Part shown: positions 1,747 through 64,000 of the stretch, in pieces
How positions within the stretch are numbered: position 1 is the stretch's first letter
Layout: each line of letters opens with the position of its first letter
Origin: Rhodopseudomonas boonkerdii
GTDB taxonomy: Bacteria; Pseudomonadota; Alphaproteobacteria; Rhizobiales; Xanthobacteraceae
DNA: 64,000 bases
Direction of reading: 5' to 3'
NCBI RefSeq assembly: GCF_021184025.1
Contig: NZ_CP036537.1
Span: 1,674,001-1,738,000 of the forward strand
The notes under the pieces: model-generated
Told to the model about the DNA's origin: nothing
Seen by the model: the letters and a program-made list of their open reading frames with translations, nothing else
Database searches by the model: none
Translations under genes and position numbers: made by a program

Positions 1747-2556
1747 CTAGTCCGGCAACTCATTTACCTTGCTCACCCACAGGCGTACGTCTGCGAGGAC
1801 CTGAGGCAACAGGGCACGCACCTGCTGCACCGTCATGCCCGCCTTGATCCGCGGATCGTACAGGATGTTGAGCAGATACTGGTCGTAGATGTCGAAGAAG
1901 CCCATCGAGACATTGTCGTTGAACATCGTCCAGGGGACGGAATTGGTGTCGTTGATGGGGCCTAGCGACTGCAACATCTCCTCATAGGCGCAGTCGTAGA
2001 ATGTGAAGTCGCCGTTGTCGGTGGTGAGGATCACGTCGGAACGTTCGATCTCGAATTGATCGTTCTTTCGAAAACCCGACAGGCACTGCGGATCGAGCGA
2101 GGTGCGAATCTCGTTGGCGCGATCCTCGCCGTAAAACGAAGCAAGGGTCGGGTACAGGTCACGGTCGCGCACCAGCTTGACGGTGACATTGGCTTCCGCG
2201 CTGCTCTCCACCATGGCGATATTGAGATGCTGCACGCGGCGGCCGATATCGGCGACGACCTTGCCGATCTGCTTCTTGCGCACAGCGGTACCGCCATCGG
2301 CGAAGACACGGACCGGAATCTCATATTTGCGAATCCGATCGACCCGTCCGGCGAGATGATATTCGGCGCCGAAGGCGGTCTTCAGAAAGCCGTCGATGAT
2401 CTGACTGTCGGTAAAACTCTTCTTCTGGTGCTTTTGATGGGCGGCGATGATCGCAGGCTCGCCGGCGCCGGCAGGCAAGGGGACGACAACGAAACTCAGG
2501 CTCGCCAGGGCGAGGAAAGCAGGCCGAAGGCCGCGCTGGAATGGAGAAGGGTGCAT
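1747..2556 (-). CDS. DUF2927-family secreted protein
   Basis: An exported protein of about 269 residues. After a basic start (MHPSPFQRGLR) comes a hydrophobic stretch ending LPAGAGEP, which looks like a signal peptide. The mature part contains the features I associate with DUF2927: a PVRVFADGG segment and the motif FYDCAYEEMLQSLGP followed by NDTNSVPWTMFNDN. Function is unknown; a periplasmic location is inferred. The start is uncertain: the frame stays open to a GTG at 2613, but the ATG at 2556 gives a better signal peptide. It lies downstream of the L,D-transpeptidase gene on the same strand, separated by a strong stem-loop. Confidence 0.8.
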   Translation of the reverse strand: MHPSPFQRGLRPAFLALASLSFVVVPLPAGAGEPAIIAAHQKHQKKSFTDSQIIDGFLKTAFGAEYHLAGRVDRIRKYEIPVRVFADGGTAVRKKQIGKVVADIGRRVQHLNIAMVESSAEANVTVKLVRDRDLYPTLASFYGEDRANEIRTSLDPQCLSGFRKNDQFEIERSDVILTTDNGDFTFYDCAYEEMLQSLGPINDTNSVPWTMFNDNVSMGFFDIYDQYLLNILYDPRIKAGMTVQQVRALLPQVLADVRLWVSKVNELPD

Positions 2557-5163: not shown

Positions 5164-5514
5164 CTAGTTGCCGCTACCTGCACCGCCAGCGCCACTTGCG
5201 CCTCCGCTGCCACCGCCGGACGTTCGGCCTTGATCGGCATTGCGGCCGCCCATGCCGGTCGTGCCTGCGGCCGAATTTGGACCACCCATGGAATTCGAGT
5301 TGTTACCTGCTTGCGAGCCTTTCGCACGCGGCATCGTCTTGGCGCCGCTTCGCTCAGGCACATCGACGGCAGTGCCGCGGCTGTTGGTGCCAGGCTGGGT
5401 GACGCCGGTTCCGGTGGAATTCATCTGCGGTGCATTCGGATTTGCGCCGCTCTGAGCGAAAGCAGGAGCCGCCATCAAAAGGGCTGCGGTTGTTACGAGA
5501 ATCGTTTTCTTCAT
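5164..5514 (-). CDS. small Gly/Ser/Asn-rich secreted protein, EcfG-promoter controlled
   Basis: A 116-residue protein with a clear signal peptide (MKKTILVTTAALLMAAPAFAQ). The mature chain is low-complexity, rich in Gly, Ser, Asn and Thr and ending GASGAGGAGSGN, with no Cys and no hydrophobic core, so it is probably disordered in the periplasm. No function recognised. A perfect GGAAC-N16-CGTT motif lies 39 bases upstream on the same strand, so the gene is likely part of the general stress response. It converges with the TPP-enzyme gene. Confidence 0.75.
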   Translation of the reverse strand: MKKTILVTTAALLMAAPAFAQSGANPNAPQMNSTGTGVTQPGTNSRGTAVDVPERSGAKTMPRAKGSQAGNNSNSMGGPNSAAGTTGMGGRNADQGRTSGGGSGGASGAGGAGSGN

Positions 5515-5552: not shown

Positions 5553-5577
5553 AACGTTGGGCTTGGCGACACGTTCC
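5553..5577 (-). promoter_or_regulatory. EcfG general-stress promoter
   Basis: On the minus strand GGAAC (5577-5573) is followed by exactly 16 bases and then CGTT (5556-5553). This matches the alphaproteobacterial EcfG/RpoE2 consensus at all nine positions. The -10 element ends 39 bases before the ATG of the small secreted protein at 5514. Confidence 0.8.
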
Positions 5578-56013: not shown

Positions 56014-56898
56014 TCAGCTGGCCTTGCGATGACGCGCTGCAGAATGCCTGACCTTCTTGCCGGGCCGCTTGCGCGCCGTTGGCCGGCGCGCGGCGACGGC
56101 GCGCTTGGTCGGTGTTTTGCCGCCTTTGAGGCTGGCCTTCAGTGCGTCCATCAGATTGATCACGTTATCAGGCTTCTCTTCCTTCGCCACGGCCTTCACC
56201 GGTTTGCCGGCTGCCTTGCGTTTCACCAGTGTCTTTAGTGCCGCTTCGTATTCGTCCTTGAATTTGCCGGGATCGAAATGCGATGCCTTGCTGTCGAGGA
56301 TATGTGTCGCGAGCTCGATCATGTCCTTGGCGATCTTCGGACTCTTGATGTCGTCGAAATAGTCGGTCTCGTCACGCACCTCGTAAGGATAACGCAACGT
56401 GGTGCCGAGCAGGCCCTTGCCGAGCGGCTCGAGGGCGATCACATGCTCGCGATTGGTCAGCACGATGCGCGCCAGGGCCACGCGATCCTGATCCTTCATC
56501 GCATCGCGAATCACCGCAAAGGCATCGGCCCCGGCCTTGCCGTCCGGCGCGATGTAGTAGGGATGGTTCAGGTAGCGGCGGTCGATCTCGTCGCGCGGGA
56601 CAAAGCTGTCGATGTCGATGGTGTGATTGCTTTCGATCTGTACGGCTTCGAGTTCTTCCTTCTCGATCTCGATATACTCGCCTTTGCTGATCTCGTAGCC
56701 GCGCGCTTTCTGATCCTTCTCGACCACGTCGCCGGTCTCGGAGTCGATCATCTGCTGTTTCAGACGATTGCCGGTTTCGCGATTGATCATATGGAATCGG
56801 GTTTTCTCCACGGTGGTGGAGGCCGGATAGAGTACGACCGGGCAGGTCACCAGCGACAGTTTGAGAGAGCCTTTCCAATAGGCGCGGGGCGGAGCCAT
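56014..56898 (-). CDS. ku: Ku DNA end-binding protein
   Basis: A 294-residue bacterial Ku. The start at 56898 ([20 protein letters not shown]) is the standard family N-terminus. The Ku core follows with [36 protein letters not shown] and [20 protein letters not shown], then a basic Lys/Arg/Ala-rich C-terminus that binds DNA. Ku homodimers encircle double-strand break ends and recruit LigD for non-homologous end joining. It is divergent from ligD, with an EcfG promoter interleaved with that of ligD. Confidence 0.96.
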
Positions 56899-56949: not shown

Positions 56950-56974
56950 GGAACTTCAACGGAAGCTCTCCGTT
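56950..56974 (+). promoter_or_regulatory. EcfG promoter of ligD
   Basis: GGAAC (56950-56954), 16 bases, then CGTT (56971-56974): a perfect EcfG consensus, 40 bases before the ligD start at 57014. It overlaps the divergent ku promoter. Confidence 0.85.
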
Positions 56975-56982
56975 TTGGTTCC
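56958..56982 (-). promoter_or_regulatory. EcfG promoter of ku
   Basis: On the minus strand GGAAC (56982-56978), 16 bases, then CGTT (56961-56958): a perfect EcfG consensus, 60 bases upstream of the ku start at 56898. It is interleaved with the ligD promoter on the other strand. Confidence 0.85.
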
Positions 56983-57013: not shown

Positions 57014-59665
57014 GTGGCCGATCGCCAACTATCGATTTACCGCAAGAAGCGCGATTTTGCGCAGACCCGGGAGCCGTCCGGCAAGATCGTGGTCACGCCG
57101 GCGAAGCGACCGCGCTTCGTGATCCAGAAACACGATGCCACGCGGCTGCACTATGACCTGCGGCTGGAGATGGATGGCGTGTTCAAGTCCTGGGCGGTGA
57201 CGCGCGGGCCCTCCCTCGATCCTGCCGACAAACGGCTGGCGGTGGAGGTCGAGGACCATCCGCTCGATTACGGTGATTTCGAAGGGACGATCCCGAAGGG
57301 ACAGTATGGCGGCGGCACGGTGCAGCTCTGGGACCGTGGCTATTACGACGCGGAAGATGCGGCCAAGGGTCTTAAGAAGGGCGATCTGAAGTTCACGCTG
57401 GACGGCGAGAAGCTGCATGGCGGCTTCGTGCTGGTCCGGATGAGGCGCGACCGCAATGGCGGCAAACGCGCCAACTGGCTGCTGATCAAGCATCGGGACG
57501 ACTATGCCGTGGATGGCGACGGAGAGGCGATCCTGGACGGGGACGCGTCGGTCGCTTCGGGGCGCAGCATGGAAGATATTGCCGAAGGCAAAGGACGTGC
57601 GCCAAAACCGTTCATGATTGGCAAGCGCGCGAAGATCAGAAAAGATGCCGTCTGGGATTCCAGCGAGGGCGAGGCGGCAGAAGCGCGCACCCGGAAGGGA
57701 GGCCGAACCAAAGCAGGTGTGGCGAGGAAGGCGAAGAAGGCGGTGACGATACCGGGCTTCGTCGCTCCGGAACTGTGCATTTCGGTGGACCGCCCGCCCG
57801 CGGCCGCGGGCTGGGTGCATGAGATCAAGTTCGACGGTTACCGCATGCAGCTTCGCGTCGAAACCGGCGAAGCGACACTGAAGACACGGAAGGGACTCGA
57901 CTGGACCGACAGTTTTCCGGTTATTGCGGAGGAAGCCGGCAATTTGCCGGATTGCATGATCGATGGTGAGATCGTGGGACTCGACAGCGGCGGTGCACCG
58001 GATTTCGCTGCATTACAGGCGGCCCTGTCCGATGGTGAAACCGATACGCTGATCTTTTTCGCATTCGACCTGTTGTTCGCCGATGGCGAAGACCTGCGCA
58101 GACTGCCGCTGTCGGAACGGAAATCGCGCTTGAAGACATTGTTGTCGCAAGCGCGCGGTCGCCGGAAGGAAGGCTTGATTCGTTATGTCGATCATTTCGA
58201 ATCCGGCGGCGATGCGATCCTGCAATCGGCCTGCAAGCTGTCGCTGGAAGGTATCGTGTCGAAGAAGCTCGCCGCTCGCTATACGTCCGGCCGCTCGTCG
58301 AACTGGACCAAAGCCAAGTGTCGTGCAGGACATGAGGTGGTCATCGGGGGCTGGAAGACCACCAAGGGCAAGTTCCGTTCACTGCTTGCCGGGGTCAACA
58401 AAGGCGATCATCTCGCTTATGTCGGCATTGTCGGCACAGGTTATGGTGCCGACAAGGTCAAACGTATCATGCCGGCATTGAAGAAGGCTGCCGCGGAACG
58501 GTCGCCGTTTGGTGGCGAGAATGCGCCGGCGGGCGGGCGTGATGTGCATTGGCTCAAGCCGGAACTCGTGGCCGAGATCGAATTCGCCGGCTTCACCGAC
58601 TCCGGTATGGTGCGCCAGGCATCGTTCAAAGGATTGCGTCAGGACAAGCCGGCGGAGGAAGTCGAGGCCGAGAAGCCGAAGAAAACAGCGCTCGCTGAGC
58701 CCAAGCCGAGGCGTGGCAGAACCAGGAAGGCAGCCAAAAAAACAGTGTCGAGATCGGTCGCGGGAAAATCCGCGGAGGTGATGGGCGTCACGCTCTCGCA
58801 TGCCGACAAGGCGCTTTGGCCGGACATCGATGACGGGGGAGCCGTCACGAAGCGGGATCTCGCCGAATATTTCGAGGCGGTGGGCGGCTGGATGATGCCC
58901 CATCTGAAGGGGCGGCCATGCTCCGTGGTGCGCGCGCCCGACGGGATCGACGGTCAACAATTCTTTCAACGCCATGCCATGGCCGGCACATCGAGTTTGC
59001 TGGAGCTCGTGAAGGTGTCGGGCGATCGCAAGCCGTATCTGCAGATAGACCGTATCGAGGGGCTTGCGGCGGTCGCGCAGATGGGCGGGCTCGAGCTTCA
59101 TCCATGGAACTGCGCGCCAGGCGAGCCCGATGTGCCCGGCCGTTTGGTCTTCGATCTCGATCCTTCGCCGGAGGTGACGTTTACCGACGTGATCGCTGCA
59201 GCTCGAGAGCTGAACGAGCGACTATCCGCACTGGGCATGGAAAGCTTTTGCAAGACCACCGGCGGCAAAGGTCTGCATGTGGTCGTACCGTTGAAGTATG
59301 GTGTGCGAGATCGCGTCGACTGGAAGATCGCAAAGACATTTGCTCAGACCATCTGCCAGCAGATGGCGGGAGATGACCCCGAGCGCTATCTCGTCAACAT
59401 GTCGAAAGCGAAGCGGAAGGGGAGGATCTTTCTCGATTATCTGCGCAACGATCGCATGTCGACAGCGGTATCGGTGCTGTCACCACGGGCGAGGAAGGGC
59501 GCCACGGTGTCGATGCCGGTGACGTGGGCGCAGGTGCGCGGCAATCTCGATCCGAGAAAATACACGCTGCGCAGCGTGCCGGGGCTGCTAAAAAGGAGCA
59601 AGGCCTGGATGGATTACGAGAAAGCCGCGTCGTCGATCAAGGCAGCGATCGGGAAGATGAAGTAG
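57014..59665 (+). CDS. ligD: multifunctional NHEJ DNA ligase LigD
   Basis: An 883-residue LigD. The GTG start at 57014 ([20 protein letters not shown]) is chosen for its GGAG site and because the phosphoesterase domain follows normally. Domain order is 3'-phosphoesterase (about 30-190, [20 protein letters not shown]), ATP-dependent ligase (about 250-560; adenylated Lys272 in EIKFDGYRM) and primase-like polymerase (about 600-880; metal Asp714/Asp716 in [20 protein letters not shown]). With Ku it joins broken ends. A Lys/Ala linker sits between ligase and polymerase. The gene is monocistronic. Confidence 0.96.
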
Positions 59666-59749: not shown

Positions 59750-59914
59750 TTACAGCCGACCAAGCAACAAAAGGATCAGCAGAATCACGATCACCAGGCC
59801 GAGGCCGCCGCCGCCATAATAGCCGGTGCCGTAGAACGGGCCACCGCCGATGCCGCTGAATCCGCCAAGCAGTGCGATAATTAGAATGATCAGAATGATG
59901 GTACCGATAGACAT
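59750..59914 (-). CDS. DUF3309-family small hydrophobic protein
   Basis: A 54-residue protein; GGAG precedes the ATG at 59914. It starts MSIGTIILIILIIALLGGFS, continues through a Gly/Tyr-rich turn (GGGPFYGTGYYGGGG) and ends in a second hydrophobic helix LGLVIVILLILLLLGRL. This is the DUF3309 layout: two short membrane helices around a Gly-rich loop. Function unknown. A perfect EcfG motif upstream marks it as a likely general-stress protein. Confidence 0.88.
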   Translation of the reverse strand: MSIGTIILIILIIALLGGFSGIGGGPFYGTGYYGGGGLGLVIVILLILLLLGRL

Positions 59915-59960: not shown

Positions 59961-59985
59961 AACGTCCGGACAACGGCAAGGTTCC
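59961..59985 (-). promoter_or_regulatory. EcfG general-stress promoter of the DUF3309 gene
   Basis: On the minus strand GGAAC (59985-59981), 16 bases, then CGTT (59964-59961). All nine consensus positions match, and it lies 47 bases upstream of the DUF3309 start. Confidence 0.83.
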
Positions 59986-60447: not shown

Positions 60448-63210
60448 TTACTGCAGCCGTGTCGAACGAATCCGTTTCGGTGCCGCCTTGGTCTTGATGA
60501 TCGCCGCGGGAAGATACTGCAGGTACTTGGAAACGGTGATCCCCGTGACGTCATAACCAGGCGCGTGCACGGTGGCGTCAAGCTTCGATCCGTCCAGCCA
60601 TTTGCGACCACCGTCGGTAAAGTCTGCAAGCGTGCGTCCGACGATGACGATGGCCGCGTCGCGCTGATGGCGACGTGCGAAGGCGATGATGTGAGCTGCA
60701 TGCGGGCCGGTAACATCGAGCGGATCATAGTCGCCATCGGTGAAGACATCGGCAAGCTCGCCCCGTAGTTTCAGAAGCTCACGCGTCCAGGCGAATTTGA
60801 TATGGCCGTTAGACCAGATTTCGGACAGCGCTTCCCAGTCGGGGGTTCTCGTCTTTTCCAGGATCGCGACGCGTCCGGCGAAATCCACCGGGCGGCGATT
60901 GTCGGGATCGACCAGTGACGTATCGAAGAATTCGGTGCCTTGATAGAAGTCCGGCATGCCGGGGATCGTCGCCTTCAGCGTAATCTGGCTGAGTGAATTG
61001 AGTGCGCCGATCAAGGCAGTGCGCCGGGCAAAGGCGTCGATCTGATCGATGAACTCCCTTGACGCGAGGGGATCGAGAATCCGGGCGAGGAAATCCTGCA
61101 AGCCTTGCTCATAGGCGGCATGTGGATTGAGCCAGCTCGTCTCTTCCTTGCCCTCGCGGGCGGCCTTGAGCGCATAGGCTTGCATGCGTTCGAGGAAAGT
61201 ATGGTCGTGTTCGTCCAACGGCCAGGCACCGATCAGTGCCTGATACAGCATGTATTCGAATGCAAACGAGGGTGAACGCATTTCGCCATCCACGATGATA
61301 TGCGGTGCGTTGAGAACTTTCCAGCGGCTTGCCGCGGTGGCCCATTCACCCGGCAGTTCAGCCAGAGCCAGCAGGCGTGCGCGAGCATCTTCGCCTCGTT
61401 TTGTGTCATGCGTGGCCGTAGAGGTCATGCCATGCGGGAATTCGTTGACGCGCTGGATCATCAGCTTGTGGAAGCGTTGTACCGGCATCGCCCCGGCGGC
61501 CGGCTCGCCGCCTACCTCGTTGAATGCGAGCAGCTTATGATAGCGATAGAAGGCGGTGTCCTCGAGCGATTTCGCCATGGTCGGGCCGGTGAACTGCTGC
61601 ACCTTGAAGGCAAAACGGCGTACGCGCAGCTTGCTGTGCGTGGGGCGGCCCGGCTTGAGAAGATCGAGCGTTAGTGCATCGCGCAAGAAGTCGAACAGGC
61701 CTTCGTCGGTGCCAAACCATTCGGCGCGTGCTTTGTCGATCGTGTTCGAGATAAGCGCGCGGTCGAGGGGGGAGGGACCAGCGGCGGTCAGATAGGTCCG
61801 ATAGACCGGGAAGTGAAGGACGTAGAGTTCAAAAGCCTGGCGGAGCGTGTCGGCAGAGAAATCGCGCGTCGAGTAGTGGCCGTTCGCGATGCGCGCCAGC
61901 AAGCGTGTTAATACGGTGAATTCGGAGAGCAGCAGTGTATTGAGCACGCGGCGCTTGGCTTCGACTAGCAATGGTTCAAATGTCGGCGACGTATTGCTGA
62001 CCTGCCGCCACGTTTCGCCGAGCGGTTTCAGGCCTTCGTCATCGGCCAGGACCTGGGTGATGGCATTGAGCCATTCGTAGCCTGTGGTGCCGTGCACTCC
62101 GGCGAAGGGCACCAGCTTCTCATCTTTACCGAGGATTTTCTCGACGACGAGATAGAACGGTTTGACCTTGCCCTGCGCCTCTCGGATCAGGCGGCGCAGA
62201 CGCTGAAAATATTGCGAGGGATCGCGCAGGCCGTCGATGTGATCGAGCCGCAAGCCTTGCAGCTTGCCCTCGGCGATCAGCCGTTTCACCTGGGTGTGGA
62301 TGGCCTCGAAAGTGTCACTATCTTCGACACGGAGGCCGGCCAGCGTGTTGACGTCGAAGAAGCGGCGATAGTTGATCTCGCTGGAGGCGAGGCGCCATTG
62401 GCCGAGCTTGTAATGCTGGCGCTCCAGCAGCATGTGCAGGGCCTGTATCTGCGCGGGACGATCCGGCGCGGCACGATAGGCATCGAGGCCGCGGGCGATG
62501 ACGGGGGCCGCCCCCTCGATTGCGGCGAGCTGCTTTTTGAAAGCCGGCGCCTCGTTGCGATTGGGATGGCGCAAGCCTTTGTGTTTGCCGGCCAATGTCA
62601 GGATCGCACGACCGGCGGCGGTGTCGCCAGCGCCGGCTTCCTTGACGATCGCGTGCAGCATCTCGCTATAGCGTTCGGGTGCAATAGGTAAGCGATGCTC
62701 ATAATACCAGGCTGAGAAACTGCCTTCGGAAGCATCGTATTTCAGCTCGATCTCACCATTCTCCAGCGCCTGGCCGTAAGAAGAGCCGATGATCGGCAGC
62801 AACAGGCCGCCACGGGCGCGATATGGCAGTGTCTCCCAATCGATGTCGAAAGAGACGGCGTGGGGCGAGGCTTGCCCCCATTCAAGGACGTCGAGCCACC
62901 ACGGATTGTCGGCGTAATGCACGCCGACATGATTGGGTACGAAATCGAGGATGAGGCCGAGGTCGTTCCTCTTCAGGGCGGCGCTGAATCGCTCGAATCC
63001 GGCATCGCCGCCGAGCTCGGGATTGAGTTCTGTATGGTCGACGACGTCGTAGCCATGAGTCGAACCGGCGCGTGCCTTCATAAAGGGCGAGGCGTAGACA
63101 TGGCTGATGCCGAGGGCCCTGAGATACGGGGCGATCAGCGCGGCGGCGTCAAAATCGAAGTCTTTCGTGAGCTGCAGGCGATAGGTGGCGGTCGGGATGG
63201 CCGGCGGCAT
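60448..63210 (-). CDS. treY: maltooligosyltrehalose synthase TreY
   Basis: A 920-residue GH13 enzyme. The start matches the family: PTATYRLQLTKDFDFDAAAL, then GISHVYASPFMKARAGSTHG. The catalytic region has LRLDHIDGLRDPSQYF (nucleophile Asp), LVVEKILGKDEKL (acid/base Glu) and STATHDTKRGEDARARL. TreY converts the reducing end of maltooligosaccharides to a trehalose unit, which TreZ releases, so trehalose is made from glycogen. It lies immediately after treZ (stop TGA and ATG adjacent), in one operon. Trehalose is an osmotic and desiccation protectant. Confidence 0.95.
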   Translation of the reverse strand: MPPAIPTATYRLQLTKDFDFDAAALIAPYLRALGISHVYASPFMKARAGSTHGYDVVDHTELNPELGGDAGFERFSAALKRNDLGLILDFVPNHVGVHYADNPWWLDVLEWGQASPHAVSFDIDWETLPYRARGGLLLPIIGSSYGQALENGEIELKYDASEGSFSAWYYEHRLPIAPERYSEMLHAIVKEAGAGDTAAGRAILTLAGKHKGLRHPNRNEAPAFKKQLAAIEGAAPVIARGLDAYRAAPDRPAQIQALHMLLERQHYKLGQWRLASSEINYRRFFDVNTLAGLRVEDSDTFEAIHTQVKRLIAEGKLQGLRLDHIDGLRDPSQYFQRLRRLIREAQGKVKPFYLVVEKILGKDEKLVPFAGVHGTTGYEWLNAITQVLADDEGLKPLGETWRQVSNTSPTFEPLLVEAKRRVLNTLLLSEFTVLTRLLARIANGHYSTRDFSADTLRQAFELYVLHFPVYRTYLTAAGPSPLDRALISNTIDKARAEWFGTDEGLFDFLRDALTLDLLKPGRPTHSKLRVRRFAFKVQQFTGPTMAKSLEDTAFYRYHKLLAFNEVGGEPAAGAMPVQRFHKLMIQRVNEFPHGMTSTATHDTKRGEDARARLLALAELPGEWATAASRWKVLNAPHIIVDGEMRSPSFAFEYMLYQALIGAWPLDEHDHTFLERMQAYALKAAREGKEETSWLNPHAAYEQGLQDFLARILDPLASREFIDQIDAFARRTALIGALNSLSQITLKATIPGMPDFYQGTEFFDTSLVDPDNRRPVDFAGRVAILEKTRTPDWEALSEIWSNGHIKFAWTRELLKLRGELADVFTDGDYDPLDVTGPHAAHIIAFARRHQRDAAIVIVGRTLADFTDGGRKWLDGSKLDATVHAPGYDVTGITVSKYLQYLPAAIIKTKAAPKRIRSTRLQ

Positions 63211-64000
63211 TCACTTGTCTCCCATCCACCACTGGATTGCCCATGGTGCGAGCACGTCGCCTTGACGGCCCCAGATCAAGGTGCCGCTGGTTGTGGATGC
63301 GGTAACTTGCTTGTCGGAGAGATTGGCGCGCAACAGCAGTCGTGTATCGTCGCCCATTCTCCAGTCCGCGATGAGCAGGCCCTCGATCTCCTCGACCTTC
63401 CCGAAGCGTGCGCCGACACTGCGCGGGACGATGTGTTGCTTGCGCATCCGGAGCAGGTCGCGGACCATCGCCCAGCGCCGCCTGCCGGCGCCGCCTCGCA
63501 TCTCCCAATCGATCTTGGCATGCTCGAAGGTCGCAGCATCGAGCGGATCTGGAACGTCGTCACCGTACTGCTCATAGGCGTTTGCGAATTCCTCGCGGCG
63601 GCCGCTGCGCACCGCATCGGCAAGATCGCCACGGAAATCGCAAAAGAACGGGAATGGCACCTTCGAGCCCCATTCCTCGCCCTGAAACAGCATCGGCACC
63701 ATCGGCGCCAGTAGAGTGATAGCGAGCGCGGCCTCGATGGCCAGTGGCTCGGCAATGGCCTCCAGGCGTTCGCCGAGGGCGCGATTACCGATCTGGTCGT
63801 GGTTCTGCAGGAAATTGACGAAAGCGGACGGCGGTAATGCGCCGCTCGGCTCGCCGCGCATCGCGCCATCACGGTGAGCTGACGGCTGGCCCTGATAGGA
63901 GAAGCCGGAGCCGAGGGCCTGCACGACATGGCCGACCGGTGTCGGCACATAGTCGCTGTAATAGCCTTTATCCTCGCCGGTTAGCAGAACGTGCCAGGCA
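63211..64000 (-). CDS. treZ: maltooligosyltrehalose trehalohydrolase TreZ, C-terminal part
   Basis: The frame is open to the window edge (minus strand) and gives the last 262 residues of TreZ. They begin AWHVLLTGEDKGYYSDYVPT and contain the GH13 end motif FVNFLQNHDQIGNRALGERL, GGAGRRRWAMVRDLLRMRKQ and a beta-sandwich C-terminus ending WMGDK. TreZ hydrolyses the linkage made by TreY to free trehalose. The 5' part lies outside the window. It ends directly before treY. Confidence 0.93.
   Translation of the reverse strand, partial: AWHVLLTGEDKGYYSDYVPTPVGHVVQALGSGFSYQGQPSAHRDGAMRGEPSGALPPSAFVNFLQNHDQIGNRALGERLEAIAEPLAIEAALAITLLAPMVPMLFQGEEWGSKVPFPFFCDFRGDLADAVRSGRREEFANAYEQYGDDVPDPLDAATFEHAKIDWEMRGGAGRRRWAMVRDLLRMRKQHIVPRSVGARFGKVEEIEGLLIADWRMGDDTRLLLRANLSDKQVTASTTSGTLIWGRQGDVLAPWAIQWWMGDK

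Follow-up and report, generated by a model that had tools for sequence, protein, structure and literature searches.

The divergent genes ku and ligD of Rhodopseudomonas boonkerdii are separated by a region that contains a 33-bp element, located at 56950-56982 of the 64,000-nt stretch of DNA that was analysed (hereafter, the window). Our comparative analysis indicates that this element is very probably a conserved two-way promoter, made of two interleaved promoters of the EcfG (ECF15 group) type, one directed towards each gene. The element reads GGAAC-N3-AACG-N9-CGTT-N3-GTTCC, so an exact GGAAC-N16-CGTT motif is found on both strands: at 56950-56974 on the plus strand, pointing to ligD, and at 56982-56958 on the minus strand, pointing to ku. 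Both motifs had been placed at these positions in the initial annotation and were recovered there. The predicted ligD promoter has its -35 box (GGAAC) at 56950-56954 and its -10 box (CGTT) at 56971-56974; the predicted ku promoter has the same boxes on the minus strand at 56978-56982 and 56958-56961, respectively. The whole 33-mer is symmetric at the promoter elements only, a feature absent from the initial annotation. Counted from the final -10 base, the ligD start codon (GTG, 57014) is 40 nt away and that of ku (ATG, 56898) 60 nt away, in agreement with the annotated distances. Transcription generally starts about 7 nt beyond the -10 box, and the transcript starts are therefore predicted at 56981 (plus strand) for ligD and at 56951 (minus strand) for ku. 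The ligD -35 box overlaps the predicted ku start, and the ku -35 box overlaps the predicted ligD start.

The identity of the divergent pair, proposed from the sequence, is borne out by curated models. The minus-strand gene (56014-56898) encodes the NHEJ end-binding protein Ku of 294 aa (TIGR02772 Ku_bact, E 1.6e-87, and PF02735), whose closest named matches come from Tardiphaga and other Bradyrhizobiaceae. The plus-strand gene (57014-59665) encodes LigD, a three-domain NHEJ ligase with the PE-ligase-Pol order (TIGR02776, TIGR02777, TIGR02779 and TIGR02778); its GTG start is a probable one, and the reading frame stays open farther 5′. The locus thus carries both parts of a bacterial two-component NHEJ system, Ku and a three-domain LigD. 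Adjoining ligD are treY and part of treZ (60448-63948, minus strand) for trehalose synthesis. In Bradyrhizobium diazoefficiens other trehalose genes are GSR targets according to the accessible part of PMC8092242, a part that gives no motif.

Assignment of the sigma factor

The GSR core is encoded in this genome (locus L141) and includes NepR (PF18557), PhyR (NF006623) and an ECF sigma factor (NF009192) whose gene directly follows nepR and so sits in the ecfG position. The EcfG consensus is given as GGAAC-N16-CGTT and GGAAC-N17-20-GTT in the available excerpts of two reports (PMC6599016, PMC7083833), and the -10 element is described as flexible in the published passages at hand. At the ku-ligD element the GGAAC -35 box of ECF15 sigma factors is present on both strands, and the N16 spacer and CGTT agree with a spacer of about 16-17 and a -10 of the (C)GTT type; relatives mostly have GGTT or CGTT. 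It had been claimed that ku and ligD are driven by interleaved EcfG promoters. The divergent interleaved motifs hold up on comparison (see below) and NepR, PhyR and the ECF sigma factor are all present, while the use of EcfG at the element is something we infer from the published consensus.

Upstream of nepR, inspection by eye revealed GGAAC-N16-CATT, so the -10 preference of the local EcfG is not fixed; the phyR/nepR-ecfG locus has no exact GGAAC-N16-SGTT. The intergenic region between phyR and nepR-ecfG (L141, 1226-1460) resembles that of ku and ligD in that both strands carry GGAAC boxes and the flanking GSR genes diverge; its -35 boxes, however, stand back to back and its promoters, judged by eye, do not overlap.

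Conservation of the doubled pattern

A lone motif is weak evidence, because GGAAC-N15-18-CGTT is not enriched genome-wide (156 matches versus 308 for a reversed control in the single 5.63-Mb contig); the weight comes from placement and conservation. In the window, the exact N16 motif was observed 4 times versus 0.48 expected from dinucleotide shuffles, and the N15-18 motif 6 times versus 1.69 expected. The latter value makes the earlier estimate of about one chance occurrence in 64 kb a fair one.

We therefore relied on a doubled pattern, GGAAC-N3-AACS-N9-SGTT-N3-GTTCC, where S is C or G at the outer -10 base. It was found in 120 of 391 genomes of the family, belonging to 5 of 47 genera, with one site per matching genome; its reversed control gave zero among the matches listed. 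In all 30 loci fetched from the 120 matching genomes the element lies between divergent ku and ligase genes. An order-wide sample contained the pattern in 15 of 397 genomes, all from the same family (a control match occurred in one genome), and none of the 373 sampled genomes from other families of the order had it. In a class-wide sample, a relaxed version matched 2 of 387 genomes, both again from the same family, with control matches in 3 genomes.

For comparison at the level of individual loci, 156 loci (L001-L110 and L155-L200) were reduced to 143 by removing 2 without a Ku N-terminus and 11 with duplicate upstream regions. Genomes for L155-L200 were picked mostly for absence of the exact pattern, so the set is biased against the motif. 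The ku orthologs (≥63% identity) comprise 113 with ligD no more than 200 bp away, 13 without it in that range and 4 of unknown arrangement. Of the 113 adjacent loci, 109 have a ligD-side GGAAC that keeps register with the ku-side GTTCC (107 with the window spacing and 2 with one extra base). The same was true for 71 of 71 adjacent loci among 76 distinct loci chosen regardless of motif. The conservation in close relatives that the initial annotation had proposed to check is thus observed, and its view that two so placed motifs are unlikely to be a product of chance is supported by the family-wide retention of the doubled geometry. A loose test for GTTCC at 38-125 nt upstream of ku is positive in 112 of the 113 adjacent loci. 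A ku-directed GGAAC-N16/17-SGTT is found in 97 of the 113 and is lacking in 16. Deviations among adjacent loci include replacement of the ligD-side GGAAC by GGAGC in L020, L181 and L182 and a damaged ku -35 in L158. One locus of the set, L035, is a Tardiphaga-like ku-ligD locus on a contig labelled Mucilaginibacter (Bacteroidota), which is probably mis-binned.

Fate of the element when ku and ligD are apart

Of the 13 ortholog loci with ligD elsewhere, only two (L024 and L046) have the ligD-side GGAAC in register, versus 109 of 113 when the genes are adjacent (Fisher 5e-11, uncorrected for kinship). Kinship-corrected adjacency contrasts left 5 independent pairs, too few for a firm reading, of which 3 agree, 0.1 disagree and 1.9 show no difference (p 0.25). 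Among the 11 apart loci that lack the ligD half, nine retain a ku-directed GGAAC-N16/17-SGTT, the exceptions being L174 and L185. These sequences suggest that the interleaved element tends to break into one-way promoters after gene separation.

Individual lineages illustrate how this may proceed. All five loci of a clade of close Bradyrhizobium relatives (L070, L162, L163, L166, L172) carry a separate GGAAC-N16-TGTT for ligD, which is 371-1444 bp from ku. In L024, ligD is 431 bp away and has no motif of its own; the interleaved element is retained. L046 and L157, which share the same upstream sequence, have about 950 bp between ku and ligD and a duplicated promoter: a second copy of the entire element lies next to ligD (the alignment to sister locus L064 scores 92, and the two copies within L046 align with a score of 55 versus a maximum of 40 in 1000 shuffles). 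This copy has kept the ligD elements and lost the ku -35, and the ku-proximal copy of L046 has both halves. Complementary losses are seen in the two separated copies of a genome from the same lineage (G220): GGAGC replaces the ligD -35 in the ku copy (L156), and the ligD copy (L248), on another contig, has lost the ku -35. For three loci with a short upstream stretch, the available sequence ends 521-550 bp upstream of ku, possibly at a repeat. In two of them ligD does not occur in this stretch (521-539 bp) and the ligD -35 is damaged (GGAGT in L040, GGAGC in L047); in the third (L061) it is intact.

Among 15 ligD loci surveyed in 13 genomes, ku is absent from the fetched flank of seven. An EcfG-like motif lies within 180 nt of ligD in five of these (L248, L249, L253, L254, L255); L245 and L257 have none within this distance. 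No EcfG-like motif was found in L256, L258 and L259 either, where ku lies upstream of ligD in the same direction.

A second ku/ligase pair and other ku types

In two genomes (G213 and G269) the doubled pattern also occurs between another ku, 45-52% identical to that of the window, and a gene for a ligase-domain LigD relative; the family search on this second pair covered G213. A tree of 38 chosen rows nests the second-pair ku in a clade whose ku genes have no ligD match beside them, and the AU test rejects its grouping with canonical ku (p 0.00013). An independent origin of the same geometry seems the simpler reading of these data, and we favour it over transfer of the promoter by recombination.

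In a more distant ku set, GTTCC was found upstream of ku in 13 of 13 rows, of which 11 have no adjacent ligD match; an SGTT-type -10 is present in only 1 of these 11. We also inspected the regions upstream of 39 ku genes belonging to other ku types and other genera. GTTCC occurs 38-125 nt upstream of the gene in 30 of 39, and a ku-directed SGTT at N16/17 in 12 of 39. Two of the 39, from two genomes of one genus (L208 and L226), have GGAAC 27 bp before the ku-side GTTCC, near register, with no ligD match within the fetched 1.5 kb. EcfG control of ku as the ancestral state is unsupported by these 39 regions.

Possible consequences of the interleaved arrangement

In the mechanism that we propose, stress would free EcfG from NepR, and EcfG-RNA polymerase could then dock in either orientation on the same DNA to transcribe ku leftwards or ligD rightwards. 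Since each predicted start falls inside the -35 box of the opposite promoter, simultaneous occupancy is unlikely, and mutual occlusion would leave room for only one polymerase at a time. Whether such occlusion sets the Ku:LigD ratio or its noise is a matter of speculation.

RpoE2 of Sinorhizobium meliloti reportedly controls NHEJ genes, as Dupuy and colleagues are said to have described in 2019. The ku-ligD genes of Sphingopyxis granuli are listed in the EcfG regulon in the available part of PMC7083833, and a table entry in PMC6599016 puts a Ku gene of Sphingomonas melonis under EcfG. Our locus would be similar to these systems in that ku, with or without ligD, is likewise under the alphaproteobacterial general stress sigma factor; the accessible portions of the two sphingomonad reports describe no interleaved divergent element at ku/ligD. 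No interleaved EcfG promoter at ku-ligD was found in the open-licence literature as represented by titles and abstract openings, and the accessible passages of the USDA110 start-site map (PMC4842269) yielded nothing on ku/ligD. EcfG control of NHEJ genes has thus already been reported; what looks new is a conserved, symmetric element of interleaved promoters, together with its splitting.

A close parallel is provided by E. coli bidirectional promoters, which, according to the available sections of Warman et al. (NAR 2026, PMC12825309), consist of pseudo-symmetric DNA that RNA polymerase binds in either orientation, one orientation at a time, giving rise to divergent RNAs. Pseudo-symmetry of the ku-ligD element appears from the inner -10 bases, which are complementary at mirror positions in 102-107 of 107 loci; symmetry of the -35 boxes follows from the selection of these loci for both boxes in register. 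The E. coli promoters depend on sigma70 and a shared symmetric -10, with starts mostly 18 bp apart (10 and 23 bp are also common; PMC12825309, same sections), whereas the ku-ligD element would use an ECF-type sigma factor, has both -35 and -10 doubled, has predicted starts about 30 bp apart and serves one functionally coupled gene pair in one clade. Starts in the E. coli class flank or lie within the shared -10; here, the two -10 boxes are separate (56958-56961 and 56971-56974). The element may work like such a promoter but, having no shared -10, is better regarded as a variant than as belonging to that class. Overlapping divergent promoters are also known from plasmid pLS20, where they serve as a switch; judging by the title of that report (PMC4207663), the switch works with DNA looping, and its available text shows no sign of a shared ECF-sigma element.

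It is an evenly balanced matter whether both promoters simply work and their interleaving has no regulatory consequence, being a compact way to place two neighbours under the same sigma factor. The accessible text of Warman et al. 2026 (PMC12825309) reports that at the five E. coli bidirectional promoters tested, basal transcription is too low for polymerases to compete. The ku-ligD arrangement has also been dismantled in two or more lineages in which both genes retain a motif. The same text states, however, that competition arises once one direction is strongly activated. By analogy, competition is plausible at ku-ligD, because induction of the GSR should activate both directions via the same sigma factor. 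Recurrence of the identical geometry at the second ku/ligase pair also seems to speak against an arrangement devoid of consequence. We tentatively entertain the further-reaching idea of a dedicated single-site two-way device, in which each docking would yield either Ku or ligase, and which would have arisen at least twice and undergone complementary decay on separation of the genes; we consider it possible rather than probable.

The two-way promoter that we favour offers a compact, conserved and naturally mutated model of one stress sigma factor serving two partner genes from a single site. It predicts that transcription of Ku and LigD is stress-linked and possibly mutually exclusive, which is relevant to when bacteria risk error-prone end joining, e.g. 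under desiccation or starvation. The natural variants (interleaved, split, or with one half decayed) are suited to a search for rules of bidirectional promoters beyond sigma70.

Footprint of the element and alternative readings

To derive the footprint we aligned 112 adjacent loci with the ku-side GTTCC as the anchor, so that this box is invariant by construction; when more than one GTTCC was present, the one with an in-register GGAAC was preferred. The ligD -35 box and the inner three bases of both -10 boxes have an IC of 1.7-2.0, and the outer -10 base is less conserved (0.52 for ku and 1.30 for ligD). Low IC is observed in spacer columns 14-20 (0.04-0.47) and in columns preceding the ligD -35 (0.04-0.54). 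Columns 26-27 (TT, IC 1.93) are as invariant as the boxes, yet lie outside the EcfG consensus, and columns 6-8, 13, 28 and 35 are also kept (IC about 0.9-1.2). On the ku side the -10 is CGTT in 58 loci, GGTT in 39, TGTT in 9, AGTT in 4, and CATT and CTGT in 1 each. On the ligD side it is GGTT in 97, ACTT in 4, TGTT in 4, CGTT in 3, AGTT in 2 and GGGT in 2. Only 2 of 112 loci have CGTT on both sides, as the window does. Apart from the inner -10 bases, the other eight mirror pairs are complementary in only 0-40 of 107 loci. Since most mirror positions are non-complementary, what is conserved is not a hairpin or an extended dimer site.

The strong conservation and the inverted symmetry at the elements, as well as the conserved columns 26-27, are also what one would see if the 33-mer were the operator of a dimeric DNA-binding regulator and its resemblance to EcfG promoters were secondary. 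We consider this very improbable. A dimer site should lose both halves, whereas 11 of the 13 apart loci have lost one half, with 9 of the 11 retaining a lone ku-directed GGAAC-N16/17-SGTT. In addition, the conserved blocks fit the EcfG -35 and -10 at the spacing given in the excerpts of PMC6599016 and PMC7083833, and the lack of complementarity at most other mirror positions also argues against an operator.

It is very unlikely that the ku promoter alone functions, with a ligD half that owes its presence to common ancestry and overlap. The consensus-like CGTT is indeed commoner on the ku side than on the ligD side (58 versus 3 of 112 loci), and GTTCC precedes ku in all 13 distant rows, though with an SGTT-type -10 in just 1 of the 11 that have no ligD match next to them. 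However, the ligD -35 lies outside the core of the ku promoter and is nevertheless in register in 109 of 113 adjacent loci, while the columns adjoining it vary (IC 0.04-0.54). Furthermore, the ligD -35 and -10 persist in ligD-proximal copies devoid of the ku -35, and 5 of the 7 ligD genes without a nearby ku have a motif of their own.

Finally, a chance occurrence or a local hairpin has a negligible probability: a lone motif is frequent genome-wide (156 matches), but only 0.48 were expected in the window, chance is refuted by family-wide conservation of the doubled pattern, and spacer positions that are mostly non-complementary oppose a hairpin.

Other occurrences of the motif

A palindrome with EcfG-like motifs on both strands and the -35 boxes inside is located upstream of a superoxide dismutase gene of the same genome (C1:1200121-1200149; about 822-851 of L240); its geometry is unlike that of the ku-ligD element. 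Further overlapping motif pairs in the genome, among the matches listed, are at 1113573/1113575 and 2267735/2267737. In the window, an N18 match at 2038-2064 (plus strand) lies within a long ORF of the opposite strand and is probably due to chance. An exact GGAAC-N16-CGTT at 5553-5577 (minus strand) is 39 nt upstream of an ORF at 5164-5514 (minus strand) for a protein of 116 aa with a signal-peptide-like N-terminus and no Pfam match. Another exact GGAAC-N16-CGTT, at 59961-59985 (minus strand), is 47 nt upstream of a 54-aa DUF3309 ORF (59750-59914, minus strand) located downstream of ligD, and this DUF3309 gene looks like a putative further GSR target.
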